Shown: positions 1 through 28,202 of the stretch, one piece after another
Numbering within the stretch: the first letter of the stretch is position 1
Layout: each line of letters starts with the position of its first letter
IMG/VR virus record: IMGVR_UViG_3300026519_000039
Coordinates: 1 to 34,447 of that record
Direction: 5' to 3' (one strand)
DNA from: a virus
DNA: 34,447 bases
Program-made: the position numbers and the translations under genes
The notes under the pieces: generated by a model
What the model was told of the DNA's origin: nothing
Databases searched by the model: none
Seen by the model: only the letters and a program-made list of their open reading frames with translations

Positions 1-353
1 TCATCGTATCGGCCATCCCGCACCGCGCGGAAGACGGAAGAGCGGCGGAAGTTGCCGATGCCGACGTTGTAGGCGAAGCTCACCAGCGCGCCGAACTGGT
101 TCTCGTTCAGCCGCTGCATCACGTCCTCGCCCAGGGCTTTGGCCACCTGCCGGGCAAAACTTTCCACGTCCCGGCGCAGGATTTCTTCCGCTTCCTGCTG
201 GGTGATGCGCATGCCAGGCCTCACCTTCGGCGGGCCGGCATGAGAAGTGTGGCCGTAGCCAATCGTCCACACACCAACGGCATCGCGATAGGCCTTCAGC
301 CGCAGCCCCTCGAAGCGCTTTATTGTAGCTATAGTGTTATTGTTTATGTTCAT
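1..353 (-). CDS. Endolysin (GH24 lysozyme), copy A, cut by the window edge
   Basis: N-terminal 117 residues of a phage lysozyme that cleaves peptidoglycan at the end of infection. The family catalytic pattern E-x8-D-x5-T is visible near the start (KRFEG..., YRD, VWT). The ATG at 353 lies 2 bp after the tail-fibre stop; a GGGTG sequence about 7 nt upstream may serve as ribosome site. The first 127 bases of the window are identical to 33535-33661 in the complete endolysin, and the phase matches, so joining position 1 to 33534 would give a 213-residue protein with the same C-terminus as copy B. Outside that block the N-terminal halves differ by scattered substitutions. The truncation is therefore most likely an assembly boundary, not a broken gene. 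Confidence 0.9.
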   Translation of the reverse strand, partial: MNINNNTIATIKRFEGLRLKAYRDAVGVWTIGYGHTSHAGPPKVRPGMRITQQEAEEILRRDVESFARQVAKALGEDVMQRLNENQFGALVSFAYNVGIGNFRRSSVFRAVRDGRYD

Positions 354-355
354 TT

Positions 356-1705: not shown

Positions 1706-1737
1706 ATTCTATGCCAGCCGGAAAGGGTGGTGAGGTT
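1706..1737 (-). promoter_or_regulatory. Candidate late promoter, copy 1 (tail fibre and lysis)
   Basis: On the minus strand AACCTCACC (1737-1729) is followed after exactly 17 nt by TAGAAT (1711-1706). Two other sites in the late region share AACCTCACC and the 17-nt spacing (13789-13820 and 17017-17048). The -10-like hexamer would place the start of transcription near 1699, the tail-fibre ATG itself. The upstream element is not a sigma70 -35 consensus, so an activator or alternative factor is inferred. Confidence 0.6.
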
Positions 1738-1742
1738 TTGCG

Positions 1743-4316
1743 CTATTGCCCGAACGCGGCACCGAGGTCAGGCATACGCACGTCCTCGCCGCCGAACAAC
1801 GGCTGGCCGGGCGGCGCAAAGAACTCCTGCCCCGTCTCGCGCTTGAGCTTTTTCATCTGCCGCCTCCAGCGCTTCGGCGCATCCTCGTCCGCCATCAGCA
1901 GAAGCTGGTCAAGCACGTGCCGCTCCAGCGCCAGGCGCAGATACCACAGCGACGCGCCAGGCGCATAGCGCCCCACGAACCGCACCAGCTCTGCCGCAGG
2001 CTTGCCAATATCACCTTCAGCAGCCCAACCCACCGCCTTGCCAGTCGTCAGCCGCGCCACATCGCCAAGCAGGCCGAACACCGGCCCGGCCACCGTCTCG
2101 CCCATGCTGTGGCCGAACCGGTTCTGGCCAGGATCGAGCAGGAAGTCGCCGAAGATGCCAAGGCCACCACCTTGCAGCATCGCCCGCATCCAGAAGCCAG
2201 GCGTGTTCATGGGCTGCGGATCGCGCCCACGCGCGATTTGCTTCAGCTGATAGCTGAACGCCCCCATCACCGTCAGCGTCGCGAACATCGCTGCCGCATA
2301 ACGCGCGGCATTCCATCCGTTGTCCATGTATTTGATGCGTCGGAAGTGCGTGAACAGCAGCGTAACCGCGAAGCTGCGATACATGCTGGCGGAGCGCAGG
2401 ATTTCTCCGCCAACCGTGCCTGCCTTGCCGCCATACAGGAAAGCCTGCGTGCGCAGGCTCGTCGTCGGCACGGCATACTCCACTTCGCTCTGGATCATGT
2501 GCAGCATGCGAAAGGCCAGCTCTTCAGCCTGCCCTGCATCGATGTCCGTGCGCATGCGCACGTCGTCAGGCCGCAGGAATGTCGCACCTTCCTGCGGTTC
2601 GTAAAGCCTTGTGCTGCGGATAACGTCCCACTCGCCCTTGCCGATCCGATAGCGCCTCAATGTGCGCCGCAGGGCTGCCGGCAGGTCGTCGAAGCTCTTG
2701 CCGGCATGGTCTGCCAGCATCCCCATGAACTCCAGCTGAAATGCATGCCTGCCTGCCTGCGTCCACGGCGAGAGGCCGGAAAGGCGCAGCACGCCATTAG
2801 CCAGCCTTGTCGCCACCTCGTTGCTATGCGCCTCCGCGGTGAACCGGAAGTCGTTGCGTGCCACGCGCCCCCACTCCTCGGCCACCAGCCCCGCACGAAT
2901 TGCCATCGTGCGTGCCTCACGCCCACCAGCCTGCGCAGGCTGCAGCAGCAGCTTCAGCTGCTTGCCAATGACCTTGTCGTATCGCAGCCCCACGAAGCGC
3001 GACGTGATCGCGCCAAACCCCATGTCCGACAATGCCGAGAGCATGGCGCTGCCAAGCTGCGCGGCCACCAGCATGCTGCGCGTGGTCGCGGCTGCCCGTG
3101 CCAGCTTCTTGGACGCAGGCACGTGCGCCGTGCCGTTGTAGATATCCCACATGGTCTGCACGGTGTGCTGCGTGCGCGCCACGCCGTCGAGCAGATTGGT
3201 CGCCTTGCGCAACAGGCTCTTCTGCTGCTCCTTGCTGTCCGGCAAGCCGGGCGTTGGCCACTGGCGCACCTTGAACTGCTGACCTTCCTTCTCAAGCAGC
3301 TGCTTCAGCCATTCCACCGTCGAATGCGGGTTCGGCCCAAGCCGTCGCAAGGCGGCAATGTCGCGCGTCATCTCATCCACATAATGCATCATCGCCGCCC
3401 ACGGATCAGGATTGCCAAACTGCTCCTGATACTCGATCCAGCTCTTTGCATCCTTGAAGAACAGGAAACGATGCTCCTGCCGCCGGTTAGCCATTGCCGT
3501 GCCCTGCCGCTGGCCAACCGGCTGCTTGCTCGCCCAGCCATCCGTTACGATGTCGTTCCACACGCCATCGAGGACGATGCGCAATTCCTCATCCGTCATC
3601 GGCATGCCTGTATGCCGCGAGATCATGCGCTGCCGGTCAAGGCGCGGCAGCACATAATCGATCCAGGCATCCTTCCCCATGGCATAGATGCGTGTGGCAT
3701 CGTGCGCCTGCGGCAATCCCCAGCCTTCCAGCTTGCCGATGTCTCCGCCTGCCTCGTTGAACTTCTGCCGCAGCTCCTCGGCCACCTCGCGCCACGCCTT
3801 CTGCAATTCCTTGGCTGCCTGATTGCCGCTGTCCTCGCCGAAGGCCTCCCGCACCAAATCCATCAGGTCGGCCTTGTTGCGCGTCTGCCCGGCGACGTTC
3901 GTGTGAAACCGCGCCAGCAGATCGGCCAGCTTGCCGTGCGCCATTGCCAGCAGCGCCTTGCGCTCCTGCTCAACACCGCGAATGCCGAGGTGCTCCAAGC
4001 CGACGCTGTCGAACTGCGCTTCCGCGGCCAAGCGCATACCCTTTTCGCCATATTCCTGCGCTGCCCGCTGCAGATCGCGCGCGATGCGCACGCGCACCTG
4101 CAGCGTCATGAGCTCCAGCTTCTTCTTGCGCTTCGCCTCCACAAGCACGATGCGCGCCGCTTCCTGCTCTGCGCGGCGCGCAGCCTGCTCAGGCCCGCTC
4201 TGCTCGCGAAAGGCAAGCTCTAGCTGATCCACCAGCGCATCGATCTCGCGCGCCTTCTCCAGGCTGATGCGACCGGCCATCGCCAGTCGCGTCAGGCATT
4301 CACGCTTGCGGCTCAT
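1743..4316 (-). CDS. Large internal virion (DNA-ejection) protein
   Basis: 857 residues, starting at ATG 4316, which overlaps the previous stop by ATGA and has AGGAG 8 nt upstream. The first 150 residues are charged and strongly helical. A central segment with HRFLFFKDAKSW, YVDEMTRDIAAL and LGPNP motifs recalls large virion proteins of podoviruses. The C-terminal third has hydrophobic stretches (for example AARYAAAMFATLTVMGAFSY) that could cross or insert in membrane. It is last of four head-to-tail genes between the tail tube and tail fibre, where T7-like phages encode the inner-core proteins ejected with the DNA. I see no transglycosylase motif. Specific T7 equivalence (gp16-like) is inference. 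Confidence 0.7.
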   Translation of the reverse strand: MSRKRECLTRLAMAGRISLEKAREIDALVDQLELAFREQSGPEQAARRAEQEAARIVLVEAKRKKKLELMTLQVRVRIARDLQRAAQEYGEKGMRLAAEAQFDSVGLEHLGIRGVEQERKALLAMAHGKLADLLARFHTNVAGQTRNKADLMDLVREAFGEDSGNQAAKELQKAWREVAEELRQKFNEAGGDIGKLEGWGLPQAHDATRIYAMGKDAWIDYVLPRLDRQRMISRHTGMPMTDEELRIVLDGVWNDIVTDGWASKQPVGQRQGTAMANRRQEHRFLFFKDAKSWIEYQEQFGNPDPWAAMMHYVDEMTRDIAALRRLGPNPHSTVEWLKQLLEKEGQQFKVRQWPTPGLPDSKEQQKSLLRKATNLLDGVARTQHTVQTMWDIYNGTAHVPASKKLARAAATTRSMLVAAQLGSAMLSALSDMGFGAITSRFVGLRYDKVIGKQLKLLLQPAQAGGREARTMAIRAGLVAEEWGRVARNDFRFTAEAHSNEVATRLANGVLRLSGLSPWTQAGRHAFQLEFMGMLADHAGKSFDDLPAALRRTLRRYRIGKGEWDVIRSTRLYEPQEGATFLRPDDVRMRTDIDAGQAEELAFRMLHMIQSEVEYAVPTTSLRTQAFLYGGKAGTVGGEILRSASMYRSFAVTLLFTHFRRIKYMDNGWNAARYAAAMFATLTVMGAFSYQLKQIARGRDPQPMNTPGFWMRAMLQGGGLGIFGDFLLDPGQNRFGHSMGETVAGPVFGLLGDVARLTTGKAVGWAAEGDIGKPAAELVRFVGRYAPGASLWYLRLALERHVLDQLLLMADEDAPKRWRRQMKKLKRETGQEFFAPPGQPLFGGEDVRMPDLGAAFGQ

Positions 4317-6685
4317 AGCAGGCACTCCTGTATCTCGCGCGCTGCTTTCTCGTCAGCAGCAGCCTCTTCGATCAGCTCGGAAAGCTTTCGCGTGTTGCCT
4401 TCCTCTCCCCACGGCAATTCCATGTCGCCTTCCGCCTCGACAAGATCGCGCAGCTCCTTCTCGATTGCCGCAGCTTCATCCTCTTCGGGCTTGCTGGAGG
4501 GTGCCTCTAGGTTTCTTTCTTCTGCACGTTTTTCCACGCCTGCCATCTTGCCTTCAGCAGCGCGTCTGCTGCCGCGTCCTGCACGCCCATCCTTACCGCC
4601 CACTGGCGCTGCTCTTCGGACAGCGTCGAGAAAATCCCCGCCGACGTCGGCAAGCTTTTCCCCTCTTGCAAGGCGTTCTGCGGCTTTTGCGAGGGCATCT
4701 GCGACTTCGCCCTTGCGCCGCGCGAGCTTCTGGAGCGTTTCGATAAGGGCTGCGTCTTCTTCGGCTCTTCTGGCATTGGCATCCTTCCTCAGCTTGTTTC
4801 CAGCCTCCTCGATACGCCCGGCCTCGCGCACCAGCGTGCGGAATGCCTGCCGGTCGCGCTGCAGGTGGCGCACCGCCCAGCTCAGCAGCTTCGCACGTTC
4901 TGCATACAGCACCCGTGTGGATGCTTCTTCGCCGAACAGCGTCTGCTGCACCTCCTTCACCTGCCCGGCATGCAGTGCATCGCGCACCATGCTCTCGGCT
5001 TCGATGGCCGATGCAGGCTTGTGCTTGGCTAGCACCCCCATGATAGAGGCGTGCAGCTCCGGCTTGTCCGCCGCCAACCTGCCGACGATGGCGGCGTGGT
5101 TCGCCGCCACCTTGCCGTTGACAACCATCATGAAGGCATCGTCATCGAGCTGCGCCAGTCCTTTCGCATCGCGCACCAGTGCGCTGTTCGGCGGCAGGTC
5201 AACTGCCACCTCTGGCGCATCACGCAACACCTTGGCGGCATCCAGCGCCGTGCCGGTGCCCTCGGCGATGTTCTTAGCTGCCGCCCGCGCCCGCGCCATT
5301 TCGGCGCTTACGCCATCTCGTTCACGCAGCAGCGTGCCCAGCAACACCGGGCGCTGGCCATCATCCTGTTCCATGATGCGCCGCGCCAGACCAAGGCGCT
5401 GGTGGCCATCGACGATGTAGCGGCTGCCGTCCTCGGCTTCCCACACCATCACTTGCCCGGCCCGTTCCGGTATCCAGCGCTTCACGCCGGCAAGCCGGTC
5501 AGTTACGCCATACTCGTCGCCACCCTCCTTGAACTGAAACCGCTTGGCATCCACCAGCAGCTCTTCCGGATCGAACTTGTAGATGCCTTCCGTCAGCGCC
5601 TGCGTGCTGCCGGGCTTCGGCGCCACTGGCGTCATCTCATCCGGCGGCGCAACTGGTTCATCCGGAATATCCGGCTTGCGCCCTTCGGCAGCAGCCCGCT
5701 CGGCCTCTGCCGTCCGCGCCACGTGCTCAGCTTGTGCCTCCGGCTCATCGCCAATAGGATTGCTCTCGCGCAGATGCGCATCCGCCGCAACCTCTTCGAG
5801 CAAGGCCTGCTCTTCGTCCGTCTTCGCCTTGCGCTGCTCAGCCAGCAGCTCTTCGCTGCGCCGGTTGCGCCAGCGCTGAAAGAGGCGACCAGCACCATGC
5901 GTTGCCGCGGCAATGCCGGCAGATGCTACAGCGTCGGCAGCAACCTGCGCTGCCATCTCGCCAGCCGTCATCGGCTTGCCAAGCTCTTCCCGCCAGCTAC
6001 TCACCCACGGAAGAGCGGCTGTGCTTGCACCTGCGCCAATGGCAGCCTCGCGTGCCAGCATCGTGGAGAGCTGCGCCGATCCTCCGGAAAACACTCCGCT
6101 GACGATGTTCTGCGGGTCTGTCAGGTTGGCTGCCATGCCTCCCAGGAAGCCGCCGAGCCAGGCAGACCACCCATCACCACGCCGCGCCACGTCTTCCGCT
6201 TCCGCCTCGGCGTCCAGCGCCTGCTGTATGGCTGCCAGCCGCACTTCCTCCGGCGTAACCGGCAGCTTCTCGCGCCAGTCCTGGTGCTCCTGCACCAGCA
6301 GCTTCAGCGCCTCGTCATCCACCGTGTCCCACAACTTCAGCTGCGTGTCTTCAAGACGCAATCCGCGCCCCTGCCGCGCCCGCTGCTGCAACACGCGAGC
6401 ACGATACGGCTGCAGCACCTCGTCATAGGACTTGCCGGAAAGCTCCTCGATCAGCTCCTCGCGCCGCCTGCGCACGTCCTCGATCATCGCCCGGCGCGAG
6501 CGCATCAACCACCCCGCACGCTCCGCCTCGTAGCCTGCGGCGAAGTTTTCAAGGAAGCCGGTCGGCATGCCCGTGGCCGCCTGTGCCGTGGGCATGCCTT
6601 CCACCAACAGCTGCGGCAGCTCCCTATCGATCCATTCCGGAAGCTCTCCTTGCTCTTGCGGTGCGAATGGACTGACATACCTCAT
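4313..6685 (-). CDS. Internal virion protein with ParB-like domain
   Basis: 790 residues. The N-terminal 150 residues are helical; a small-residue segment around 180-260 (GGFLGGMAANLTD, AADAVASAGIAAATHGAG) may associate with membrane. Around residues 385-440 there is a ParB/sulfiredoxin-like signature: WEAEDGSRYIVDGHQRLGLA, the GHxR motif of the DdrB-type ParB superfamily. That domain is known in large 'polyvalent' proteins carried by phages and plasmids and injected with DNA. The C-terminal 200 residues are highly charged coiled coil. ATGA couplings occur at both ends (6682-6685 and 4313-4316), so it is translated with its neighbours. Role in ejection or in early protection or processing of incoming DNA is inference; whether the ParB-like domain cuts DNA cannot be told. 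Confidence 0.72.
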   Translation of the reverse strand: MRYVSPFAPQEQGELPEWIDRELPQLLVEGMPTAQAATGMPTGFLENFAAGYEAERAGWLMRSRRAMIEDVRRRREELIEELSGKSYDEVLQPYRARVLQQRARQGRGLRLEDTQLKLWDTVDDEALKLLVQEHQDWREKLPVTPEEVRLAAIQQALDAEAEAEDVARRGDGWSAWLGGFLGGMAANLTDPQNIVSGVFSGGSAQLSTMLAREAAIGAGASTAALPWVSSWREELGKPMTAGEMAAQVAADAVASAGIAAATHGAGRLFQRWRNRRSEELLAEQRKAKTDEEQALLEEVAADAHLRESNPIGDEPEAQAEHVARTAEAERAAAEGRKPDIPDEPVAPPDEMTPVAPKPGSTQALTEGIYKFDPEELLVDAKRFQFKEGGDEYGVTDRLAGVKRWIPERAGQVMVWEAEDGSRYIVDGHQRLGLARRIMEQDDGQRPVLLGTLLRERDGVSAEMARARAAAKNIAEGTGTALDAAKVLRDAPEVAVDLPPNSALVRDAKGLAQLDDDAFMMVVNGKVAANHAAIVGRLAADKPELHASIMGVLAKHKPASAIEAESMVRDALHAGQVKEVQQTLFGEEASTRVLYAERAKLLSWAVRHLQRDRQAFRTLVREAGRIEEAGNKLRKDANARRAEEDAALIETLQKLARRKGEVADALAKAAERLARGEKLADVGGDFLDAVRRAAPVGGKDGRAGRGSRRAAEGKMAGVEKRAEERNLEAPSSKPEEDEAAAIEKELRDLVEAEGDMELPWGEEGNTRKLSELIEEAAADEKAAREIQECLL

Positions 6686-8844
6686 GGCGCAGCAATCTCA
6701 TCTTCTGGCCGCGTGGGACGGCGCTTCATGGACGGGCCACTGCCAACAGCAAGGCGCTTCAGCAGTGCGGCATTGAGCACCCACGGCCTGCCCGTCTTCT
6801 CGTCCACGATGAACACCGGCGGACCATCTTCTGGATCAGTGATTGAGAACTGAAACATCCCTGCTGCGATTGGCACGACATGCAACTTGCGCAGCTGCGC
6901 CGCATTCACAGGCGCGAAACTGCCGTTCTTGCGCGCGAACACGGGCCTTCCACCGGTCTGCGAAATTTTCGCCAATGCACCATCGTTCAGCGCGGTCATG
7001 CGCGCCTCGAACTCCTCTACGCTGATGCTCGGCGGCAGCAGGATTTTCCTGCCGTTCCATTCGGCAAAGCCGCCGCCATCGCCGTTCTTGCCCAAGGCAA
7101 TCTCGATGGCCTGCCTGTAGAGGTCATCATCAAACTCTTCGGCACCCTGCTCAACGGCCAGCTTTGCGTAGATGCCGTCAGCTGCCTTCTTCACACCTTC
7201 CAGCGCGCCTATCGGCACCACACCGCTCAGCTCCTTGATGAGGATGTTGCGAGCAGAAGGCGGCACCTTCACCACACCGCCTTTCAGCAAGTCCATGCCT
7301 TCGAGCGCGTCGCGCACCTGCTCGCGGTTTCCCCATGCCTGCAGGTATCCGAGATGTGCAATCTCGGCCTTCTCCACGCCCATCTCCTGCAGCACACGCG
7401 CAAGGCGATTGCCCGTTCCCTCGCTCAGACGCGCAAGGAATGCCTCGCGCCCGGCCGCGTCCAGCGCATCCCATTCGCGCTTCAGCGTCTTGCGTTCGTC
7501 ATTGGTCAGGTAGCGCAGTGGCGTCTTCTGCGACCTCGCAACTGCTTCCGCCACCTCCATGCGCTGCCGCCATTGCGCCGCATCGCTTGATGCGCTCAGC
7601 GGCATCATCTTCTCCTCGCGGTTCTCGATGAGGCCAGCCTTCCCTGCAAAGCTCAGCGGGTCTTTCCGCTGCTGCTCCTGCATCCATGCCACCCGCGCCT
7701 GCATGGCGCTGGCCATGAGCACGTTGTCCTCCGTCGGCTCCTTTTCGGCCAGCGCCTTCGCTTCTTCGGCCATGCGCATCGCCTCCGGCAACGGCAGCCG
7801 TGTTACGCTGTCCAGCAGCCGCTTCGCCCGCTCCGCCTGCTGCAGCACTTTCGCCACCTTCTCGCTGCCGCTGTCTTCCACCGTGCGCTGTAACAGCCCA
7901 AGGTCAAGCTCCGATGGCGGCTGCCCGGAGCGAATAGCCATCATCACCCGGCGCATCGCACCACGTGCCGGCTGACTGGCTTCCGCCTCCGCCATGCGCA
8001 GCTTCGTCTCCAGCCTGGTGCGCACGTTCAGCCATTCATCCGCCGCCAGATTGCCGGCGATGCCCTTGCCTTGCTGCCATTCGGCATTGAGCTGCTCCAG
8101 CACCTGCTTCTTCGACGCCAGGTCTGGTGCCTGCTCGATCGCGCCCTCGATGCGCAATTCAAGTGCCTGCTGCCGCAGCCGCCGCATCACCTGTTGCCGC
8201 CTCAGCGGCGTGATGGCACCCTGCTCCACCGCGCGCTGGAGCTGTGCATCCGTATCCTGCAGCTCCTGCTCCAGCAGCTCTTCCCCCTCCGGGTCGTTCA
8301 GACCCGTGCTCAGCGCCAGCCTGCCAATATCCTGCTCGCGCCGCGCCAGCATCTCGTCCAGCGTCGCCAGCCGTTCCTGCCGCTGGCGCTTCTCGAAGCC
8401 CTGCCGCGCCTGCCGCGCCACCACCAGCGCCTGCCGCCGAAAGATCAGGTCTGCCTGCGGCTGCGCCTCTTGCGGCAAGGCACGCACGAACTTCTCGCGT
8501 TCCTTCTCCAGCGCGGCTGTCGCACTGGCAGGGTCGTCGGCATACTGCTGCAGCACGGCATCCGCCTTCTCGCGGATGGTAACGTCAAGGCGCTGCAGAA
8601 ACGTCTCCACCGCCGCAAGGTCATGCGCCGTGCCGCGAATGGTGCCATCGCGGCGCAACTTCATGTCGCCCTGCATGGCGTCCAGCGCCCCGCTCAGCGC
8701 GCCTTCCCGTCGTGCCTGCACATCCGCCGCCTTGCCAGCCTTGCGCGCCTGCTGCTCCAGGCGCTGCTGCTGGCGGCGCAGAAGGCGCGAAACCTCCTCG
8801 CCCGGCGCACCGCTGTTCACATCCGTGTATCGCCACGTCGCCAT
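6682..8844 (-). CDS. Internal virion protein, gp15-like
   Basis: 720 residues, almost entirely predicted helix, rich in Ala, Arg, Glu, Gln and Leu. The N-terminus carries VSRLLRRQQQRLEQQARKAG, and heptad-like segments continue through about residue 400. No enzyme motif is evident. Position (second of the four ejection-protein genes, 3 bp after the 168-residue protein) and size match the gp15-type inner-core protein of T7-like phages, which forms the periplasmic tunnel during ejection. The C-terminal 130 residues are more globular and contain a DPEDGPPVFIVDEKTGRPW segment. Identification is by position and composition. Confidence 0.65.
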   Translation of the reverse strand: MATWRYTDVNSGAPGEEVSRLLRRQQQRLEQQARKAGKAADVQARREGALSGALDAMQGDMKLRRDGTIRGTAHDLAAVETFLQRLDVTIREKADAVLQQYADDPASATAALEKEREKFVRALPQEAQPQADLIFRRQALVVARQARQGFEKRQRQERLATLDEMLARREQDIGRLALSTGLNDPEGEELLEQELQDTDAQLQRAVEQGAITPLRRQQVMRRLRQQALELRIEGAIEQAPDLASKKQVLEQLNAEWQQGKGIAGNLAADEWLNVRTRLETKLRMAEAEASQPARGAMRRVMMAIRSGQPPSELDLGLLQRTVEDSGSEKVAKVLQQAERAKRLLDSVTRLPLPEAMRMAEEAKALAEKEPTEDNVLMASAMQARVAWMQEQQRKDPLSFAGKAGLIENREEKMMPLSASSDAAQWRQRMEVAEAVARSQKTPLRYLTNDERKTLKREWDALDAAGREAFLARLSEGTGNRLARVLQEMGVEKAEIAHLGYLQAWGNREQVRDALEGMDLLKGGVVKVPPSARNILIKELSGVVPIGALEGVKKAADGIYAKLAVEQGAEEFDDDLYRQAIEIALGKNGDGGGFAEWNGRKILLPPSISVEEFEARMTALNDGALAKISQTGGRPVFARKNGSFAPVNAAQLRKLHVVPIAAGMFQFSITDPEDGPPVFIVDEKTGRPWVLNAALLKRLAVGSGPSMKRRPTRPEDEIAAP

Positions 8845-8847
8845 GCA

Positions 8848-9354
8848 TCACCCCCTGCGCGCCAGATCACCGGCGAAATCCGCGATCCCGCCGAAGAACT
8901 CCTGCCATCCGGCATCCTTCGCCAGCTGCGCAGCCACTCTACGCCTGCGCGCCCGCCGATACAGGTTGCGCGCCTGAAACAGCCTGTTGTCGCGCACCAT
9001 GCGTACATCTTCCATGCCCCTGTCTGCCGCCTGCATCAGCAGCACCTTTGGCGAGCCGCCCGCGACATCCGCGCCACCGGAGGCGAAGCCGACACGCGCG
9101 GCAGCCAGATCACGGTATAGCTTTTCCGTCAGTTGCCGCGCCTCCTGTGCGCCCTGCAGCTCCCGCTGCGCACCTTCCACCTCATGCGCCATCGCCTGCG
9201 CCTTCAGTGCCGCAGCCTCAGCCTTCGAGCGATAGATGGCCGTCAGCCCCGCGCCAATGGTGGCAACGCCCTGCAACATGTCGCCCGTGCTCAGGCGCGG
9301 CAACGATGCACCAGCACCCCCCAGACTGCTGAACAGCTGCCCGATGTATTCCAT
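8848..9354 (-). CDS. Internal virion protein, gp14-like
   Basis: 168 residues. Residues 20-45 form a small-residue hydrophobic segment (STGDMLQGVATIGAGLTAIY), followed by a long coiled coil rich in Ala, Glu and Gln and a conserved-looking AARVGFASGGADVAGGSP stretch that is common in small ejection proteins of podoviruses. The C-terminal third is very basic (YRRARRRRVAAQLAK). Start at ATG 9354 with GAGGTGAGCG just upstream. It lies between tail tube B and the large helical ejection protein, as gene 14 does in T7-like phages, where the product forms the outer-membrane part of the ejection channel. Confidence 0.68.
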   Translation of the reverse strand: MEYIGQLFSSLGGAGASLPRLSTGDMLQGVATIGAGLTAIYRSKAEAAALKAQAMAHEVEGAQRELQGAQEARQLTEKLYRDLAAARVGFASGGADVAGGSPKVLLMQAADRGMEDVRMVRDNRLFQARNLYRRARRRRVAAQLAKDAGWQEFFGGIADFAGDLARRG

Positions 9355-9357
9355 CGC

Positions 9358-11835
9358 TCACCTCACGAATTCGATATCCAGCCCCAGCACCTGCAGTGGC
9401 CCGGGCCGCGGCTGCGTGATGCGCACGACAGGTGCAAGATCGAAGCCCAGCAGCCCATCGATGCGCGCCTCGCCGGTAAACAGCCGCTGCATCATCGGCA
9501 CATCTGCAGGCATATCCATGCGCTGCAAGGACACGGGCCACGGCCCATCCGTGCCGGTGCCGACAGCCAGCGATCCGGTTTCGTGCAGGCTCACGGTTAC
9601 CGCGTGAATGCGCATCGGCGCGCTTGGTGCACCTGTCAGCTCCGCCGGACGCAACGGCAACGTCTGCACCTGCGGGGCAATCCACAGCCCGACATGCACG
9701 TCTCTGGCTGGTGCTTCCAATGCCACTTGCCCGCCCTGCACCTGCAGCGGCCCCTGCACATCCCCATCGGCAAGCACCCACACCAGCCAGCCTTCAAGAT
9801 GATCAAGGCCGGAAACCGTATCGAATGGCGTGGAAGACTGCTGACGCACCACGCCATCGAACAGCACGTCTGCCTCTGCCCGCTGCAGGTAGAGCGCACC
9901 ACCGCGCGCCACGACCACGAACAGTGCATCCTTCTCCGTCGTAACGAGAGAGCGATACTGCCCACTGGCATCCTTCCACACGGATGCGCCAAGGATGTTC
10001 TGCTCGCGCATGCCGGCAAAAGCGACGACGCTTCCATCATCGCGCAGCAGGTAGAGCATATCGGCATCTTCGCCGCGCACGTTGCGGCGCCTGTCCATGT
10101 CCAGCGCACCGCGCATCATCTCGTGCCACAGGTAGCCTATCTGGGAAACGCCGTAGCTCGCTTCCACATCCGAATAGACGTATTCCTCCAACGTGCTGCC
10201 GCTGCTGCCGATGTAGATGGTGCTGCCGCGCAAGGGTGCCACGCGAGCCCCAGGCTTCGCCCCAATGTCTGCCGCAGGTATGTAACGTCGTGGCTTCTCT
10301 CGATCGATCTCATCGTTGTCCAGATAGAACACCTGAGTGCCGCAGAAGATTTGCAACACGCGCCCAGGCTGCAGGGCGACGATCCCTTCCGGGTCATCCA
10401 TGTCGATGCGGTCATAGATGCCACCCCCGGCACCTTCGAAATCGATGTCGAAATCGAAGTATTCACCCACACGGCTCATGAGCAAGGCGCGGTGCAGGCT
10501 CTTCGGGCCGCCAAGCAGCAGACGCCCCTGAAAGAAACAGCCACATGCCGGCCAACCGCGCGCATCGGAAATCACGGCCTCGCCACCAGGCCTGCCAACT
10601 TGCGTCTTCTCCACCTCGATGAAAGCCGTGGCGCTATCCACGAACACGCCTTCCATCAGCAGAAAGTCGCGCCCCTCGTTGCCCGTGCCGGTGAAGGTTA
10701 CCGTGAAGACGGTCAGGCCGTTCTCCGTCCCATCCACCACCGTGATGCCGGGATACACGTTCGGCAGGTCTTCCAGCGCCGCCTTGATGGCTGCGGCAAT
10801 GTCGGCAGTCGTGCCCGTCCACTGGATGGGCCTCGTCGTCGTGCCCTCACACGTCAGCGTGAAGCTCTTGTTGGTCTCTGGCGAGAGCGCGAACACTTTC
10901 TGAATGCAGGCTTGTGCGTTCGTGTAGGTCTCGTCCGGGAAGCGCTCGAGCGGCACGTTCTTCAGCGGCACGGCATCGCCCTGCCACTGGTCGTCTGCGC
11001 CCTGCCGCTGGATGCGCCACGGGCGCACGTCGTGATGGAACAGCAGCACCGTGTCCGCCTTCTGCGCCCATGTGAGCTGCTGCAATTGGCTTCCTGCATG
11101 TGCGCCAGGGGCTGCCGCCAGCCAGTTTCCATTGGCATCATGCACATCAACATGGCCGTCCGTCAGCACCAGCAGATAGACGTTGCCGCTCTCGCTGGTC
11201 ATGTCCACCAGCCGCGCTGCTTGTGGCAGCGCGCCTACACCATGCATGGCGATGCCGCCAAGCTCCAGCCAGCCGAAGCCACTCGCGGGCACGTCGATGA
11301 CCAGCCGCCAGTGGCGCGCCGTCATGCTCTCTCCAGGCGGCAAGGCAACCCGCCGATGCCGCTGCAAGGTGGAAACATCCAATGGGTGGCCGAAGTCCAT
11401 CCATGTCCCATTGACCTGCGCCTGCACGCGCAACGCACGTTCTGCCTTGCCGGCATCGACGCGATAGGCCAGCACGTCGAATGCCTGCACGATCACATCC
11501 TGCCCGGCATCGATCTCCACCACAACCTGCTGCCCGGCGGCCAACGCGCCGGTCTGCGTCAGCGTCGCCACATCGCCATCCGTCAACCATTGCGGCGCGC
11601 CACCAGCAGGCATGGATACGGTCATCGCCGACATGTCGTGCGGTGCGATATTATGTCGCAGCTTTCCGCAATGCACGAAGCCGGGCCTGCGCGCCAACGC
11701 GCCAACAGGCGTAACAACCACGTTTTCCGCCTGCGCCAGCGCCTGCCGCCACAGCTTCGTATCCTCGCGGCGATACGCGACAGGGTCTATCTGTCCTCTG
11801 GAGAAGCTGTTCTGGGTGTATCTGGCGCGTGCCAT
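9358..11835 (-). CDS. Tail tubular protein B (nozzle)
   Basis: 825 residues, the size and position expected for the T7 gp12-type nozzle protein that closes the short tail and binds the fibres. The N-terminus (MARARYTQNSFSRGQIDPVA) has the typical 'NF..G..sp...R.D' opening of this family, followed by ALAQAENVVVTPVGALARRPGF, also typical. The body is beta-rich, with repeated GTTTRPIQWTG and FTGTGNEG type segments. Strong ribosome site GGAGG before ATG 11835. It follows tail tubular protein A by 3 bp and precedes the ejection proteins. Confidence 0.88.
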   Translation of the reverse strand: MARARYTQNSFSRGQIDPVAYRREDTKLWRQALAQAENVVVTPVGALARRPGFVHCGKLRHNIAPHDMSAMTVSMPAGGAPQWLTDGDVATLTQTGALAAGQQVVVEIDAGQDVIVQAFDVLAYRVDAGKAERALRVQAQVNGTWMDFGHPLDVSTLQRHRRVALPPGESMTARHWRLVIDVPASGFGWLELGGIAMHGVGALPQAARLVDMTSESGNVYLLVLTDGHVDVHDANGNWLAAAPGAHAGSQLQQLTWAQKADTVLLFHHDVRPWRIQRQGADDQWQGDAVPLKNVPLERFPDETYTNAQACIQKVFALSPETNKSFTLTCEGTTTRPIQWTGTTADIAAAIKAALEDLPNVYPGITVVDGTENGLTVFTVTFTGTGNEGRDFLLMEGVFVDSATAFIEVEKTQVGRPGGEAVISDARGWPACGCFFQGRLLLGGPKSLHRALLMSRVGEYFDFDIDFEGAGGGIYDRIDMDDPEGIVALQPGRVLQIFCGTQVFYLDNDEIDREKPRRYIPAADIGAKPGARVAPLRGSTIYIGSSGSTLEEYVYSDVEASYGVSQIGYLWHEMMRGALDMDRRRNVRGEDADMLYLLRDDGSVVAFAGMREQNILGASVWKDASGQYRSLVTTEKDALFVVVARGGALYLQRAEADVLFDGVVRQQSSTPFDTVSGLDHLEGWLVWVLADGDVQGPLQVQGGQVALEAPARDVHVGLWIAPQVQTLPLRPAELTGAPSAPMRIHAVTVSLHETGSLAVGTGTDGPWPVSLQRMDMPADVPMMQRLFTGEARIDGLLGFDLAPVVRITQPRPGPLQVLGLDIEFVR

Positions 11836-11838
11836 ACC

Positions 11839-12453
11839 TCACCTCCAGCGCGCCGCGGACAGCCAGTTATGCGGCAGCAACCGCGTCTTGGGCGGGCGCG
11901 CCTGGCTATCCAGGCCGGCAGAGATGGCAAACTGCCCTCCGGCCCCCTCCAGCCCCGGCGTCCCGAAGGCCTCCTGCCGAAGCTGCTCGCGCAGCGCCCG
12001 GTCCTCCCGCACGGAAAGCGCGTAGCGGCTCGCCAGCGTCAGCACCATCAGCCGCCTGAAATGCCCCGGCCACGCATTCACGGGCGGCATCGTGCGGATG
12101 CGCGCATACACACTCTCCGCATTTGTCAGCACCCGCGTGCCATCCGCATCGTAGCTGAAATCCCGCAGCACACCGTTCGGCAGGCTCTCATACAGCAGCA
12201 GCGGCGGCCCCACGCGATCGGCTGGAAGCTGATAGGCATAGCGCCACGGCGTCGCATCGACGCCCTCAACCCTCGCCAACGGACGCAACGTGGTGGCGCT
12301 GAAACTCCATTCGCGGCGGCTCAGAAGGTCTTCAAGCGTGGCCCCGAACTCGAGCACGCGCGGATGCGTGGCCGTGGCCGTCTCGGCCTGCAACGGAGCG
12401 GCACCAATCTCCAGCAGGGCTTCGTTGATGATCTCCAGCGCACCACCAAGCAT
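11839..12453 (-). CDS. Tail tubular protein A (head-tail adaptor)
   Basis: 204 residues, similar in length to the T7 gp11-type adaptor that bridges portal and nozzle. Visible family features are the INEALLEIGAAPLQA opening, a HPRVLEFGATLEDLLSRREW helix with the usual (R/H)-x5-(W) ending, and a YAYQLPADRV segment. Position right before the nozzle gene supports the call. ATG 12453 follows GGAGTGGCGGC. The C-terminal 40 residues, rich in Arg and Pro, look disordered. Confidence 0.85.
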   Translation of the reverse strand: MLGGALEIINEALLEIGAAPLQAETATATHPRVLEFGATLEDLLSRREWSFSATTLRPLARVEGVDATPWRYAYQLPADRVGPPLLLYESLPNGVLRDFSYDADGTRVLTNAESVYARIRTMPPVNAWPGHFRRLMVLTLASRYALSVREDRALREQLRQEAFGTPGLEGAGGQFAISAGLDSQARPPKTRLLPHNWLSAARWR

Positions 12454-12519
12454 GCCGCCACTCCGTCATGGAAATGAACAGGCGGGCGGCCCGCAACATC
12501 GGCAGGCCGCCCGTTGGCG

Positions 12520-12789
12520 TCAGATGTTCACCACCTGCGCGATGCTGACCACGCCACCGGTAACGTCGGTTACCACCAGCAGCCGAAGTTGCGGCGTGGC
12601 ATCCACGTCCACCGTGGCGATGATCTGATCGCCCTTTTCCAGGATGTCCGCGACAGAGTTGAAGTATCCTGCCGCATTCACCGTTACCCAGTCGTCGTTC
12701 GTTACCAGCGAATACACGCCCGGGCTGGTATCGTTCGCGGCCACACCGCCATTGGCGATGCGCCTCAGATTGCCCTTTGCAAGAGCCAT
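12520..12789 (-). CDS. Small virion protein after capsid, possible decoration protein
   Basis: 89 residues with alternating beta-type composition and no Cys or membrane segment. Start at ATG 12789 with a very strong AAAGGAGG ribosome site, suggesting high expression. It lies 16 bp downstream of the major capsid gene and upstream of tail tubular protein A, the place where many phages encode a head-decoration or head-fibre protein. I do not recognise the family with certainty; the role is inferred from position, size and expression signals. Confidence 0.6.
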   Translation of the reverse strand: MALAKGNLRRIANGGVAANDTSPGVYSLVTNDDWVTVNAAGYFNSVADILEKGDQIIATVDVDATPQLRLLVVTDVTGGVVSIAQVVNI

Positions 12790-12805
12790 CGCTCACCTCC
12801 TTTCA

Positions 12806-13663
12806 TCATACAAGCGGCGCATCGGCCTTGGTCTTGATCTGCACGATGCCTTCCGGCTGGATAGCCTTCACCGCACCGTTGATGGTGGCGCGATGCAGCC
12901 ACCCCTTCTTCTCAGGCACCCAGTCCACCTTGAAGATGGTCTCGCCGTATTCGCCGTAGCCAAGCGCGGCTTCGTGCCAGGCGTAAGTCGTGCGTTCGCT
13001 GACGTTCAGCGGCAGCGCATCGTCTGGGAAGGGAATCCAGATCACGCCATCCCACATGCGCGGGGTGTCCACCGCCACCTTCATGAACGGCTCGTCAGAC
13101 ACGTATTCCCGCCCGGCGAACTGCTGATAGCCCATTAGCTGCTCCCAGGCGTTGCTGTCCAGCAGGCAGAACTTGCGCCCCGGCATCAGCGACGTGAACT
13201 TCTTCAGGCTCATCGCGATTTCACGCGCCAGGTTCAGCGTCATCGGTTGCAGTGGGTCGCCGAGCTGATGATCAGGCGCATAGGTCTGCGCCCCCAGCTC
13301 GTCGATGACCATCTCATCAGCCTTGCGGCCCAGCGCAGCCATGATGATGGTCTTCAGGTTGTCCTGCATCGAAGGCGTGATGTCGCCAAGCTGCGGCAGG
13401 TCCTTCTCGTAGATGTATTCCGCCGCATCCCAGTCTTCGATGTCCTTCGACACGACGTTGAGCGGGGCGTTCATCGTCTTCACGTTGTCGCCACGCTCGG
13501 TGCGGCTGGCCTTCCCCTTGCCCAGCACACGCCAGTGGATTTTCTCCGCACTCACGCGCTCCGGCGGCATCATCGTGCCGCGCAGGCGGAAGCCGTAGTC
13601 CTGATAGGCCAGATGGATGCGCCGGCTCCACGCATCCACGTAACCGTTCGGAATGCTCTGCAT
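12806..13663 (-). CDS. Major capsid protein
   Basis: 285 residues, the only abundant-shell candidate between scaffold and tail genes. The sequence has an N-terminal NGYVDAWSRRIHLAYQD helix region, a WDAAEYIYEKDLPQLGD segment, and a C-terminal part (GYGEYGETIFKVDWVPEKKG, HRATINGAVKAIQPEGI) fitting the HK97-fold capsids of BPP-1-like podoviruses. ATG 13663 follows GAGGA at 10 nt. The gene is preceded by its own candidate promoter (13789-13820), downstream of a terminator that ends the scaffold unit, which would allow capsid to be made in excess over scaffold. Confidence 0.85.
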   Translation of the reverse strand: MQSIPNGYVDAWSRRIHLAYQDYGFRLRGTMMPPERVSAEKIHWRVLGKGKASRTERGDNVKTMNAPLNVVSKDIEDWDAAEYIYEKDLPQLGDITPSMQDNLKTIIMAALGRKADEMVIDELGAQTYAPDHQLGDPLQPMTLNLAREIAMSLKKFTSLMPGRKFCLLDSNAWEQLMGYQQFAGREYVSDEPFMKVAVDTPRMWDGVIWIPFPDDALPLNVSERTTYAWHEAALGYGEYGETIFKVDWVPEKKGWLHRATINGAVKAIQPEGIVQIKTKADAPLV

Positions 13664-13788
13664 CGTCTTTCAGTCCTCGTTCATGTTCCTTTGCATGGAC
13701 GGGGACGATGGCCACCTGTGCGCCGGGCTGACCGCTCAGATGCGGCAGAGGCCGGCACGATTGCGGCGGGTCTATCCCTCTGCCGTCA

Positions 13789-13820
13789 AGCATAACCGCA
13801 CCAAAACAGGTGGTGAGGTT
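13789..13820 (-). promoter_or_regulatory. Candidate late promoter, copy 2 (capsid and tail)
   Basis: Minus strand AACCTCACC (13820-13812), 17-nt spacer, TATGCT (13794-13789). It shares CAAAACCTCACCACC with copy 1 and TATGCT with copy 3. Predicted start near 13782 gives a roughly 120-nt leader for the capsid gene. It sits just downstream of the terminator at 13833-13856, a logical place for a fresh promoter. Confidence 0.68.
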
Positions 13821-13832
13821 TTGATAGGCAAG

Positions 13833-13856
13833 AAAAACCCCGGCCTTGGGCCGGGG
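13833..13856 (-). terminator. Rho-independent terminator after scaffold
   Basis: On the minus strand CCCCGGCC (13856-13849) pairs with GGCCGGGG (13845-13838) across a 3-nt loop and is followed by TTTTTCTT. It lies 10 bp after the scaffold stop and ends the head-assembly transcription unit before the capsid promoter. Confidence 0.93.
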
Positions 13857-13865
13857 CTACATGGT

Positions 13866-14726
13866 TTAGAGGCCCGCCTGCGAGGCGTAGAAGGCGTTGA
13901 TCTTGCGATCTGCCTCCGCTCGGTAGGCCGGATCATGCTTCGGACTGCGGGTGTCGTAGCGCTCATCACGGATCAACGCATCCACGTCCGCCTGGCTCAT
14001 CGGCTGCGGCACGAAACCGGGCGCAGCACCGGGTACGGCATTCTCGTTGTTGCGCACCATCGTCATGATCTTCTCCAGCGCGCGCACGCCTGCCGCATCC
14101 ACGGCAAGGTCGAGCATGGCATCGGCTTCGGCCTCGCCAAGCACGCCACGCGTCTTCATCTGGTTGACGAAGTCGGCCACCGCGGCAAGGCGCTTCTTGC
14201 CAGCCTGCGCCATTTCTTCCGGCGTCTGCGCTCCGGCTTCCTCGCCCAGCGCCAGAAGCTCCTTTTCCACATCAATGGGCGGCTGCAACAACCCCGCCTC
14301 CGCCGCTTTCTCCAGAAAGGCAGGCACCGCTTTCCTGAACTGCTCGGTGCCAAGACCGGCCTGGTGCGCCACCTCGCGCCACAGCTTCAGTGCCGGGTCG
14401 TCATCGCCAAGCTGCACGCCCTTCTGCTTCAGCGTATCCGGCAGCTCGAACGTGTAGGCATCCGGCTTCTCCGGCACCGGCCCGGCCTGCTTGTGGGCTT
14501 TCTGGTAGCCCTCGTATGCCTTCCACACGTTCTGCAGCGTGGCCGTCGGATCATCGGCACGCATGTGTTCTGGCAGCCAATCCGGAGGCTGCCAGGAAGG
14601 TTGCGCACCACCTGCCGGCTGCGTGTCGCCCCCTGCATTCACGCCGCCATCGCCGACAGGTGGTGCGCCGTTGCCCCCAGCCGCAACACCTTCACCAACA
14701 CCAGGATCGATCGTCTGCTCCGTCAT
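13866..14726 (-). CDS. Capsid assembly scaffolding protein
   Basis: 286 residues, acidic, helical and low in hydrophobic core, as scaffolds are. The N-terminal 50 residues are Gly/Pro/Ala-rich and probably disordered; DWLPEHMRADDP followed by a KAYEGYQKA helix and DAYTFELPD is the typical opening of podovirus scaffolds. The C-terminus is a basic-acidic helix (DPAYRAEADRKINAFYASQ), where capsid-binding helices usually lie. ATGA overlap with the upstream gene (14723-14726). It directly precedes the terminator and capsid gene. Confidence 0.87.
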   Translation of the reverse strand: MTEQTIDPGVGEGVAAGGNGAPPVGDGGVNAGGDTQPAGGAQPSWQPPDWLPEHMRADDPTATLQNVWKAYEGYQKAHKQAGPVPEKPDAYTFELPDTLKQKGVQLGDDDPALKLWREVAHQAGLGTEQFRKAVPAFLEKAAEAGLLQPPIDVEKELLALGEEAGAQTPEEMAQAGKKRLAAVADFVNQMKTRGVLGEAEADAMLDLAVDAAGVRALEKIMTMVRNNENAVPGAAPGFVPQPMSQADVDALIRDERYDTRSPKHDPAYRAEADRKINAFYASQAGL

Positions 14727-15022
14727 CTCTCGATCTCCTTTCCATCGCGCATCGCCAGGATGATGCGGGCGATGCTGTTCTGCCCTTCACGAAAGTGCCC
14801 GTAATCCACCCGCGTTTCCCTGTCCGCGCGCAATCCCAGCGGGTGCCATGTCTCACGTTCCAGCGTAACGCCCATCAACCAACGCAGAAACGTCTTGCCG
14901 TCTTCCGTGTCAAGCATCCTGCGCACGGCCATCTGGACTTCTCGATCTTCTTCCTTCGGCAGCGGCATAGCATCGCGCTCGCGCGCCTTCTCGATTGCGC
15001 TCCAGCCACGCTTTGCGCTCAT
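14723..15022 (-). CDS. Bbp19-like small protein
   Basis: 99 residues. The pattern GKTFLRWLM followed by FREGQNSIARIILAM matches the small Bbp19 family of BPP-1-like phages, encoded between portal and scaffold. Function of the family is not established. ATGA overlaps join it to portal (15019-15022) and scaffold (14723-14726), so the three are translationally coupled and probably act together in head assembly. Confidence 0.72.
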   Translation of the reverse strand: MSAKRGWSAIEKARERDAMPLPKEEDREVQMAVRRMLDTEDGKTFLRWLMGVTLERETWHPLGLRADRETRVDYGHFREGQNSIARIILAMRDGKEIER

Positions 15023-16596
15023 GCCGCACCTCCTTGCATCACCTGCAATGCAGGCCCTTCACCTTCCTGTGGCTGGCCACCTGCCTGCGCCGCCATCTGC
15101 ATGGCTTGCATCTGCGCCATCTGCCGCTGCATCTGCTCGCGCTCCTCCGGGCTGCGGATGAACCGCGCCGGCACGCCCAGCGCCTCGCCCATGTCGCCGC
15201 CAATGTCCTCCACCTTCGCCGCCAGCATCGCCATCTCCGGCCCCATCGCCTGCAGCATCTCAAGCCACTGCAGCACAGGCTCCATCGCCGAAACGCGTCG
15301 CGCCTGCCCGATCGGACTCAACACCTGCATCTTCGTGAACACGTCATCAAGCACAGGCAGGAAATCGATCACACCTGCCCGATGCAGAAGCTCCAGCGAC
15401 CGGCTCACCAGCGGGCGGATCAGCTCGCCGGTGATGCGCGCATCGATGCCGGCCCAGTCCATCGCCAGCTTCTTCTGCCGCTCCGCCACCTCCAGCGCCG
15501 TGCGCACCGTCTTCGCGCCAGTAGGCAACTGGTCATCGAACCCGGCTTGCTTGATCTGCATGCGCTCGTCCTCGATGACGAGCTGCGCAATGTCGAACTT
15601 CGACGGAATGTCCACCCGCTCCAGCGTGCTGCCGTATGCGCCGCCAGTCGCCTTCACCGCCCAGAACTCGCCAGGCGTAAACTGCACCATGTCCGGATTG
15701 AACACGCCATCCTCGCGGTAGGCCCACACGCCGTAGATTGCGAATGCCGCTGCCTTCAGCGCATATTCCCGCGCCACGTTCACCGTCTTCACGAACGGCA
15801 GCGCCAGGTGCGCAGGCCCCACCGCCTGAGCCTGTCCGGGCATCACGAACATGCGTGGCGTGATCCACATGCACGTGCGCTCGCGCGCTTCGTGGATCAC
15901 CTGCTCGCCGTTCTCCTTCGCCATCACCACCGTGCGCCACGGGCGCGCCGAATGGCCAGCCTCGTGCCGCGTGTAGACGGTAACCGTAACCGTCTTGTCC
16001 TGCTCCTTCTCGATGATCTCCTTGAGCCGGTCTGAGAACCGGCCATCAGGCCACATTTCGGGAAGCTGCTCCGCAGGCCACGCGCGCCGCCACACGATGC
16101 CGGCCACCTCGCCCCACGGGTTCAGCTCCAGCGCAATTTCACGGATGGGCACTGACACACACTTCAGCACACTGCCGGACGGCCCTGGAACAACCATCAG
16201 CGCGCCCTGCCCGGCGAACAGGTCGTAATACATCTCAGGCCCGGCCCGCCAGAAATTGCCGGCTTCCAGCGCCGCCATCACCACTGCCGGCAGCGGCTCG
16301 TGCTTCACCCGGAAATCATGCCGGGTCGCCCTGTCCGTGATCGCCGCGCCAGGCTCCAGCGCGAAGAACGTGTCATACGCCGGCGTAACGTCGCCCACCA
16401 TGCGCTGGCTGAACTGCACATTTGCCCGCATGCCGGTGCCGTCGAAAATCAGGTCCATGTCCGGCGTGCCAGGCGCAATGCCGTCCTGCGGCGCACGCCA
16501 CGGCGCAATGTAGCGGTGAATGTCATCCAGCGTCGCACGCCACCGCTCCGCCGCGTTCCATACACGCTCAGCGCGCTTGTATGCCCGCAATTCCAT
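15019..16596 (-). CDS. Portal (head-tail connector) protein
   Basis: 525 residues, the usual length of podovirus portal proteins of the 'head to tail connecting' family. N-terminal AYKRAERVWNAAERWRATLD helix, IAPW, then DLIFDGTGMRANVQFSQRMV, which is characteristic (FDgTg...a...fa). The C-terminus is Met/Gln-rich (EREQMQRQMAQMQAMQMAAQ) and is likely a helical barrel. It forms the dodecameric channel through which DNA is packaged and ejected. ATG 16596 overlaps the preceding stop as TGATG. It lies downstream of the terminase genes, as usual. Confidence 0.92.
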   Translation of the reverse strand: MELRAYKRAERVWNAAERWRATLDDIHRYIAPWRAPQDGIAPGTPDMDLIFDGTGMRANVQFSQRMVGDVTPAYDTFFALEPGAAITDRATRHDFRVKHEPLPAVVMAALEAGNFWRAGPEMYYDLFAGQGALMVVPGPSGSVLKCVSVPIREIALELNPWGEVAGIVWRRAWPAEQLPEMWPDGRFSDRLKEIIEKEQDKTVTVTVYTRHEAGHSARPWRTVVMAKENGEQVIHEARERTCMWITPRMFVMPGQAQAVGPAHLALPFVKTVNVAREYALKAAAFAIYGVWAYREDGVFNPDMVQFTPGEFWAVKATGGAYGSTLERVDIPSKFDIAQLVIEDERMQIKQAGFDDQLPTGAKTVRTALEVAERQKKLAMDWAGIDARITGELIRPLVSRSLELLHRAGVIDFLPVLDDVFTKMQVLSPIGQARRVSAMEPVLQWLEMLQAMGPEMAMLAAKVEDIGGDMGEALGVPARFIRSPEEREQMQRQMAQMQAMQMAAQAGGQPQEGEGPALQVMQGGAA

Positions 16597-16847
16597 CAAA
16601 GCTGCGAATCCATGTCATCGAGATAGCTCAACAGTCCGCGCCGTCCCGTGCTTCGCATGCCGGCGGCCATTTTCTGCTCCTTCTCCGCCTTCTTCCGCTC
16701 CTCGAAGGCCCGGCGGCGCGCCAAGGCCTCCTTTTCGGCCGCCAGGCGCGCCTGCTCTCGCGCCGCCGCCCGCCGCGCCTTCTTCGCACTGCGGATGCCA
16801 AGCACCGTGCCCACAACAGAGGCAATCGCCGAAATCACTCCTGCCAT
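16596..16847 (-). CDS. Small protein with hydrophobic N-terminus and coiled coil
   Basis: 83 residues. Residues 1-18 (MAGVISAIASVVGTVLGI) are hydrophobic, and residues 20-65 are a very basic Ala/Arg/Lys/Glu coiled coil. GGGAG lies 8 nt before ATG 16847. TGATG couplings on both sides join it to the upstream gene and the portal. Similar small helical proteins are common near the portal in short-tailed phages and are probably minor virion parts. I do not recognise a named family. Confidence 0.62.
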   Translation of the reverse strand: MAGVISAIASVVGTVLGIRSAKKARRAAAREQARLAAEKEALARRRAFEERKKAEKEQKMAAGMRSTGRRGLLSYLDDMDSQL

Positions 16848-17236
16848 CAGCTCATCTCCCAATATTCGATGCCGCTGCTGCGGCACGCCACCAGCCGATG
16901 CATGCCAAGCAGCTTCGCCAACCGCGCGCCGCTCTCAGCCGTTACCGGCACCAGCAGCGGCAACGCATCCGCCGCCGCCAATCCGCGCACGAAACGACTG
17001 CTTACCCGCACAAACGAGCATAACCACAACCGCAGCACTGGTGAGGTTACGAACCACAGCAATCGCATCTCTTCCAGCCGCGCCACGCCAATCAAGGCAA
17101 CGACACCATCAGGCGCAAGCACGACCCACAAGTCGCTGACCAGTATCTGATCATCCAGCTCCGGCCTGTCAGCCGCCAGACACTGCCGTACCTCCAGCGC
17201 CCGCGACTGACTGCACCTGATGATGTTCACCGCCAT
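16847..17236 (-). CDS. GNAT-like virion-associated protein (possible gp13-like)
   Basis: 129 residues with a mixed alpha/beta pattern reminiscent of GNAT folds: an N-terminal helix, LWVVLAPDGVVALIGVARL strands, RLLWFVTSP strand, and a helix near GARLAKLLGMHRL. A clear acetyl-CoA loop (R/Q-x-x-G-x-G/A) is not evident, so catalysis is doubtful. It overlaps TerL by 10 bp and the next gene by one base. Small GNAT-like proteins occur beside the portal in several podoviruses. A candidate late promoter (17017-17048) lies inside its coding sequence. Confidence 0.5.
   Translation of the reverse strand: MAVNIIRCSQSRALEVRQCLAADRPELDDQILVSDLWVVLAPDGVVALIGVARLEEMRLLWFVTSPVLRLWLCSFVRVSSRFVRGLAAADALPLLVPVTAESGARLAKLLGMHRLVACRSSGIEYWEMS
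17017..17048 (-). promoter_or_regulatory. Candidate late promoter, copy 3 (head assembly)
   Basis: Minus strand AACCTCACC (17048-17040), 17-nt spacer, TATGCT (17022-17017). Same spacing as copies 1 and 2, and the bases before TATGCT are similar to copy 2 (both have GCGGTT nearby). Located inside the GNAT-like gene, it would drive the small coiled-coil gene, portal, Bbp19-like gene and scaffold up to the terminator at 13833-13856. Confidence 0.62.
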
Positions 17237-20605: not shown

Positions 20606-20823
20606 GTGCACATTCTCCTGCGCTGGAGTGGTTGATAGGCCGTTGCCCCTCCCCCCCTACCCCCCCTCCCCATGCACGCGCGCGCGCGCGTGTCAAGTCC
20701 GCATATCGTCGCGAAGCTGCAAGGCATTGATATTGCGCAATTTTCGCTGTTGAAAACTCTACATTGGCGCACCCCCTGCGCGGCAACCGCGACTGACAGA
20801 TTGTCGCACTCATAAACGGTGTG
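20606..20823. other. Intergenic divide with C-run and alternating CG tract
   Basis: Separates the minus-strand late block from the plus-strand early operon. It contains CCCCTCCCCCCCTACCCCCC-type runs (about 20646-20671) and an alternating CG tract (about 20676-20690), both able to form unusual DNA structure, followed by an AT-richer stretch (20725-20765). I could not identify a convincing minus-strand promoter here; a TTGACA on the minus strand at 20696-20691 has no matching -10. Confidence 0.6.
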
Positions 20824-28014: not shown

Positions 28015-28202
28015 GTCGCCCTCTCGTTCCACTCTTCCATCGCTCTGACTTTGTCGCGCTCATCAGGCCTGCATTTGAGGCGCGGTCTGATGGTGGGGCC
28101 GCGTGCCTCGCATGAGCAGCATGCTATGTAAGCCCATCCTTGCATGTCTACGCCCATCTCAAGCTCCGTGCCGCCGCAGAATGGGCAAGGCTTTGCATTC
28201 AT
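28011..28202 (-). CDS. Lar-like zinc-ribbon protein, short form
   Basis: 63 residues from ATG 28202 (TGATG with the upstream stop). Classic layout for the family: KPCPFCGGTELEM, a short strand, ACCSCEARGP, then KVRAMEEWNER. Four cysteines in two CxxC pairs bind zinc. Typical Lar-family size. It sits directly upstream of the longer Lar-like gene, suggesting duplication followed by extension of one copy. Confidence 0.83.
   Translation of the reverse strand: MNAKPCPFCGGTELEMGVDMQGWAYIACCSCEARGPTIRPRLKCRPDERDKVRAMEEWNERAT

Follow-up and report, generated by a model that had tools for sequence, protein, structure and literature searches.

Several described systems offer points of comparison for the promoters treated here. 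Lambda CII is a helix-turn-helix (HTH) activator that works around the −35, and its sites are TTGC direct repeats flanking that element. The middle promoters of T4 carry a MotA box and are read through sigma appropriation (PMC6755090). Phage-like structural genes of alphaproteobacterial gene transfer agents are controlled by the DnaA-like domains of GafA and GafY at promoters with a degenerate −35; GafY requires IHF and has its binding site about 115-120 bp upstream (PMC6363796, PMC11150451). The phages phiEco32 and 7-11 have late promoters at similar places with a changed consensus, read by diverged phage sigma factors (PMC8948821), and this consensus shift is the closest published parallel to what we describe here.

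In the window, as we call the whole 34,447-base stretch of phage DNA that was analyzed, three sites on one strand are very probably conserved late promoters with a phage-specific −35, their late timing being judged from gene content. They resemble the phiEco32 and 7-11 promoters in their similar positions in distant relatives, their altered consensus and their putative use of host core polymerase. In those phages, however, a phage sigma reads the promoter, whereas here the ORFs scanned include no sigma factor, the −10 resembles that of a host promoter and only the −35 region has changed. As at T4 middle promoters, a good −10 would be preceded by the box of a phage activator instead of a −35, but this box would serve late rather than middle genes, is unrelated and phage-specific, and is accompanied by no MotA or AsiA match in Pfam and PHROGs scans. 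The candidate activator shares with GafA and GafY a DnaA-DBD-like domain (from profile and fold matches), a degenerate −35 and related hosts; it differs in its predicted placement directly at the −35 and in the absence of GafZ/DUF6456. It also has a weak CII-like profile match, but TTGC direct repeats flanking the −35 are not seen at the window sites.

Three minus-strand sites in the late region

The late genes of the window lie on the minus strand in a T7-like order: terminase large subunit (TerL), a small ORF, portal, scaffold, capsid, tail tubes, ejection proteins, fibre and lysozyme. The features that bear on the argument are as follows.

17227-18735, minus: terminase large subunit
16847-17236, minus: small ORF after TerL, which hosts site 3
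17017-17048, minus: predicted late promoter, site 3, inside the small ORF; predicted start about 17010; portal/scaffold block
15019-16599, minus: portal (PHROGs: head-tail adaptor)
13866-14726, minus: scaffold-like protein, from position and relatives
13836-13858, minus: strong intrinsic terminator between the scaffold gene and site 2
13789-13820, minus: predicted late promoter, site 2, between the scaffold terminator and the capsid leader; capsid/tail/ejection block
13664-13787, minus: capsid mRNA leader, which keeps the GGGAUAGACCCGC element of the relatives' capsid leaders
12806-13663, minus: major capsid protein
1706-1737, minus: predicted late promoter, site 1, in the 43-nt gap before the fibre gene; fibre/lysis block
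356-1699, minus: tail fibre, the first gene past site 1
33246-33884, minus: lysozyme (PF00959) of the fibre/lysis block; a second, partial copy lies at 1-386
20075-20611, minus: candidate late activator, a DnaA-domain-IV-like HTH protein of 178 aa
20824-20851, plus: ordinary early promoter, TTGACA-N16-TATGAT, in contrast to the late sites

The small ORF has no PHROGs match; from its position and what characterizes that family, we take its product to be internal-virion-protein-like.

The word AACCTCACC has exactly three exact matches in the window, all on the minus strand and all where the earlier note had reported them (1737-1706, 13820-13789 and 17048-17017). A −10-like hexamer follows each after 17 nt, as that note had also described, so that sites 3 and 2 both read AACCTCACC-N17-TATGCT and site 1 reads AACCTCACC-N17-TAGAAT. 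The common sequence is longer between pairs of sites: GGTTATGCT is shared by sites 2 and 3 at identical spacing, and CAAAACCTCACCACC by sites 1 and 2. When up to two mismatches, a spacer of 16-18 nt and any YANNNT hexamer were allowed, a scan of the window found no additional minus-strand site. Comparable families, meaning three same-strand copies of a 9-mer of any sequence with TAnnnT at 15-19 nt, arose in 0 of 300 dinucleotide-preserving shuffles.

Relative to the predicted start, the word spans −38 to −30. Its claimed departure from a sigma70 −35 is borne out by CTCACC, the sequence at the −35 position, which agrees with TTGACA at three of six bases and so falls outside the canonical element. 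The −10 hexamers agree with TATAAT at four of six bases (TATGCT, twice) or five of six (TAGAAT) and, with the 17-nt spacer, are canonical. Early promoters with TTGACA, which the earlier note had set against the late sites, are indeed present and are confined to the early half of the window.

The three sites precede the portal/scaffold, capsid/tail/ejection and fibre/lysis blocks as had been claimed, with the correction that site 3 is not intergenic, lying as it does within ORF 17236-16847. The strong terminator said to separate the first two blocks is likewise found, at 13858-13836, ahead of site 2, which stands 126 nt from the capsid start. For site 1, transcription is predicted to begin at the A of the fibre gene's ATG (1699), seven bases past the −10, and the fibre gene has no ribosome-binding site; these two features together suggest that the fibre mRNA from site 1 may be leaderless.

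Of the three sites, site 2 alone shows a clear inverted repeat, which is imperfect (AACCTCACCA..TGGTGCGGTT), and a perfect palindromic operator was rejected for this reason. A pattern scan of IMG/VR with AACCTCACCA-N16-TATGCT returned 10 single matches, none in relatives that have the motif, and we took them to be chance. We do not claim that AACCTCACC is unique, as near records of the window genome may be missing from the collections.

Because site 3 is intragenic, its letters can be set against codon usage. The late genes seldom use its codons, GTA ACC TCA CCA .. TTA, with TTA accounting for 2 of 518 Leu codons, and the 11-codon window at this site is the 8th most unusual of 5398. By a post hoc calculation, synonymous choice alone would give the site 3 letters with a probability of about 1.3e-7. 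Such very rare codons point to selection on the DNA sequence itself, and this apparent codon-level selection is an independent line of evidence that the letters of the site are selected. The intragenic copies in relatives likewise use codons of 0-4% frequency (GTA 0-1%, TTA 0%, TTG 1-3%, CCA 2%), with the exception of the copy in phage L023, whose codons are just moderately uncommon.

Private words in distant relatives

No near-DNA relatives of the window were found in the phage collection, and scans of viral contigs with the major capsid, ejection and tail proteins gave nothing. TerL searches returned about 140 distant loci, many of them in alphaproteobacterial prophages. The closest relative by TerL and portal is L010, an incomplete, 27-kb record with about 38-39% identity. 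It carries a word of its own, GCCATGCACC, four times on the same strand, each time as GCCATGCACC-N17-TANNNN, with the hexamers TAAGAT, TATAGC, TATATT and TATTCT. One copy precedes the terminase genes, one falls within the small post-TerL ORF, one comes ahead of the capsid leader and one immediately ahead of the fibre gene; three of the four are at places homologous to the three sites of the window. No shuffle of L010 reached four copies (0 of 150). An unbiased scan of the loci found three identical 9-mers with N17 and TA only in the window and L010, two AT-rich low-complexity cases excepted.

Seven further relatives have a private 9-14-mer with YANNNT at equal spacing in both the post-TerL ORF and the pre-capsid region. 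Counted from a TTGACN-type hexamer, their spacer measures 15 nt, compared with 17 nt in the window and L010. The words of these pairs are:

L019: CGCTCGGTTGAC
L030: TCGGTTGAC
L018: ACGGTTGAC
L020: GGCGCGGGTAACG
L021: CCCACTTAACA
L023: GCAATTGACGC
L089, a prophage of Oricola cellulosilytica: CAAAAGGTAACAGC, with the −10 hexamers TAACCT and TATCGT

Across 23 relatives, the pair test gives a Fisher combination p of about 1e-6, or about 8e-6 without the window and L010; its statistic was picked after the pattern had been seen, and the scans for third copies are out of sample. In these whole-record scans, CGGTTGAC-N16-YANNNT has exactly three copies on one strand in each of L018, L019 and L030, and CACTTAACA-N15-YANNNT has three on one strand in L046. 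The opposite strand of these four records has no copies, and the reversed-pattern controls gave zero. The third copy directly precedes a tail-fibre gene in L018 and L046 and an endolysin gene in L019 and L030, functions that were assigned from N-terminal sequences. L020 and L023 have two copies only, and in five relatives (L004, L006, L007, L009 and L024) the pre-capsid promoters are of the TTGAC type but no matched word is convincing. The relatives were also scanned loosely for dyads, a search that was too permissive to be informative and was discarded. Across at least nine phages, then, one-strand copies stand at conserved places with the −10 kept, and the −35 word differs from phage to phage.

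Two arrangements in the relatives are worth recording. In phage L018 (L157:786-860), a terminator hairpin includes the −10 of the pre-fibre promoter in its left arm, so that a new transcript would begin in the loop and escape termination. In L092, an operator-like repeat, ATGACAATTTTGTATTGACAA..TTGTCAT, occurs at 4171, 4864, 4970 and 17439, upstream of the capsid gene and elsewhere.

A candidate activator and other readings of the sites

We propose that host RNA polymerase would read the three sites, with TATGCT or TAGAAT serving as a normal sigma70-family −10. The phage-specific word of 9-14 nt would replace the usual −35, and a phage-encoded activator would bind it and recruit polymerase at three places: the start of portal/scaffold, the capsid/tail/ejection block past the terminator, and the fibre/lysis block. 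A private word that covers the −35 and extends past it argues for a phage-specific binding protein, and we think it likely from these sequence patterns that a phage-encoded activator is required. Word and protein would evolve together, leaving each related phage with its own word at unchanged positions. The late regulon driven by an activator or an appropriated host factor that the earlier note envisaged gains support from the positions, the −10, the changing words in at least nine phages, the third copies and the rare codons. Its statement that no motif of this form had been described holds for Pfam, PHROGs, the PMC literature and IMG/VR, where the only matches are unrelated and due to chance.

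Such an arrangement would suggest how T7-like podovirus and prophage genomes seemingly without their own RNA polymerase time their late genes, through fixed positions and a swappable word. The nine or more phages would form a natural series of promoter/activator pairs for studying DNA-binding specificity and promoter co-evolution, and the pattern offers a route to predicting late promoters and operons of uncultured phages from one genome.

The sole early protein with widespread homologues in these relatives is that encoded at 20075-20611. A homologue is present in all eight phages that combine the motif pair with sufficient upstream sequence, compared with 2 of the 11 that lack the pair (Fisher 0.0007, a value that ignores phylogeny, which confounds the association). 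The two carriers that lack a pair, L012 and L031, have words that are plausible by eye; a search of the L010 record, which is incomplete, did not find the gene. The family matches XRE-type and DnaA-domain-IV-type HTH profiles, and the best solved-structure matches to a model of the window protein are all DnaA, the top one being the DnaA-DBD bound to its box (E 0.004, a modest score). The Asp-His of DnaA is kept in 1 of 14 family proteins, that of the window, whose box has the DnaA-box core, CAC, at its end. In a small sample, recognition helices of the (T/S)KQ type pair with TTGAC/TTTAC words and other helices with TTAAC, GTAAC or CACC. We tentatively regard this DnaA-domain-IV-like protein as the activator, a choice that has close to an even chance of being right. 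That DnaA domain IV has been converted in a phage lineage into a late activator seated at the −35, with a private box in each phage and with helix and word changing together, is a more speculative possibility.

A host sigma factor, whether the housekeeping one with a weak −35 or an alternative one, might instead read the sites directly without a phage activator. All of the −35 words have "AC" at hexamer positions 4-5, several relatives have a near-consensus TTGACG, and the 17-nt spacer of the window and L010 is canonical. Alphaproteobacterial housekeeping promoters have TTGACG-like −35s and flexible spacers, and the TTGAC-like cores of most relatives, whose spacer is 15 rather than 17 nt, might be readable by host sigma70 on its own. 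Direct reading would not explain, however, why two to three promoters per phage share a private, phage-specific 9-14-mer that includes bases upstream of the hexamer, and CTCACC and TGCACC match TTGACA at just three of six positions. We therefore consider it unlikely.

A phage-encoded sigma factor too diverged for profiles might read both elements, as in phiEco32 and 7-11, where late promoters at similar positions with differing consensus are served by diverged phage sigmas (PMC8948821). Against this precedent, no phage RNA polymerase or sigma family appears among the window proteins scanned, a set that leaves out some small ORFs; the sigma-like DUF6456 (the GafZ/GafA C-terminal domain) is found in 0 of 16 records, and the −10 resembles that of the host. 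This reading is improbable. Still less credible is a repressor operator or a replication or packaging site that precedes the gene blocks by coincidence: the word at site 2 belongs to the imperfect inverted repeat, and a DnaA-like candidate makes replication boxes conceivable, but the −10 distance is fixed at every copy, strand bias is strict, the copies lie ahead of gene blocks, and the replication region has none. A chance repeat noticed after the fact, a reading to which the 1233 nine-mers present at least three times on one strand of the window might lend weight, is in our view already refuted by the shuffles, the codon evidence, the L010 copies and the out-of-sample third sites, and its probability is close to nil.

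The capsid leader and further features of the window

The leader of the capsid gene, about 190 nt long, is far better conserved than the proteins (GGGAnnGGACCCGC .. AAGGCACTCGGCCCGA), with some compensatory pairs. It was located at:

L004: 15195-15395
L006: 14690-14881
L007: 14520-14718
L009: 5150-5347
L024: 15222-15413
window: 13664-13787

At the curated threshold, Rfam has no family for these leader loci in the window or the four relatives tested, and the conserved leader is possibly an undescribed structured RNA.

The two ends of the window (1-386 and 33535-34447) have 127 bases in common without a mismatch, within the lysozyme gene, and diverge beyond them into two lysozyme/fibre variants. 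From its sequence, the genome appears to be circular, with two haplotypes of the fibre-lysis region; an assembler k-mer of 127 is common.

Within the late genes, codon choice is at its most unusual at 4516-4790, the 3' end of gene 4313-6685, where the motif is absent. A clear Bac_DnaA_C domain (E 4.5e-23) is present in a second protein, encoded at 25646-26350 and adjoining the replication genes. Repeats occur in two further places: the fibre gene has four 30-nt tandem repeats at 819-968, and at 28202-28519 a 12/18-nt repeat array underlies an ORF for a (GDGSGY)n repeat protein.
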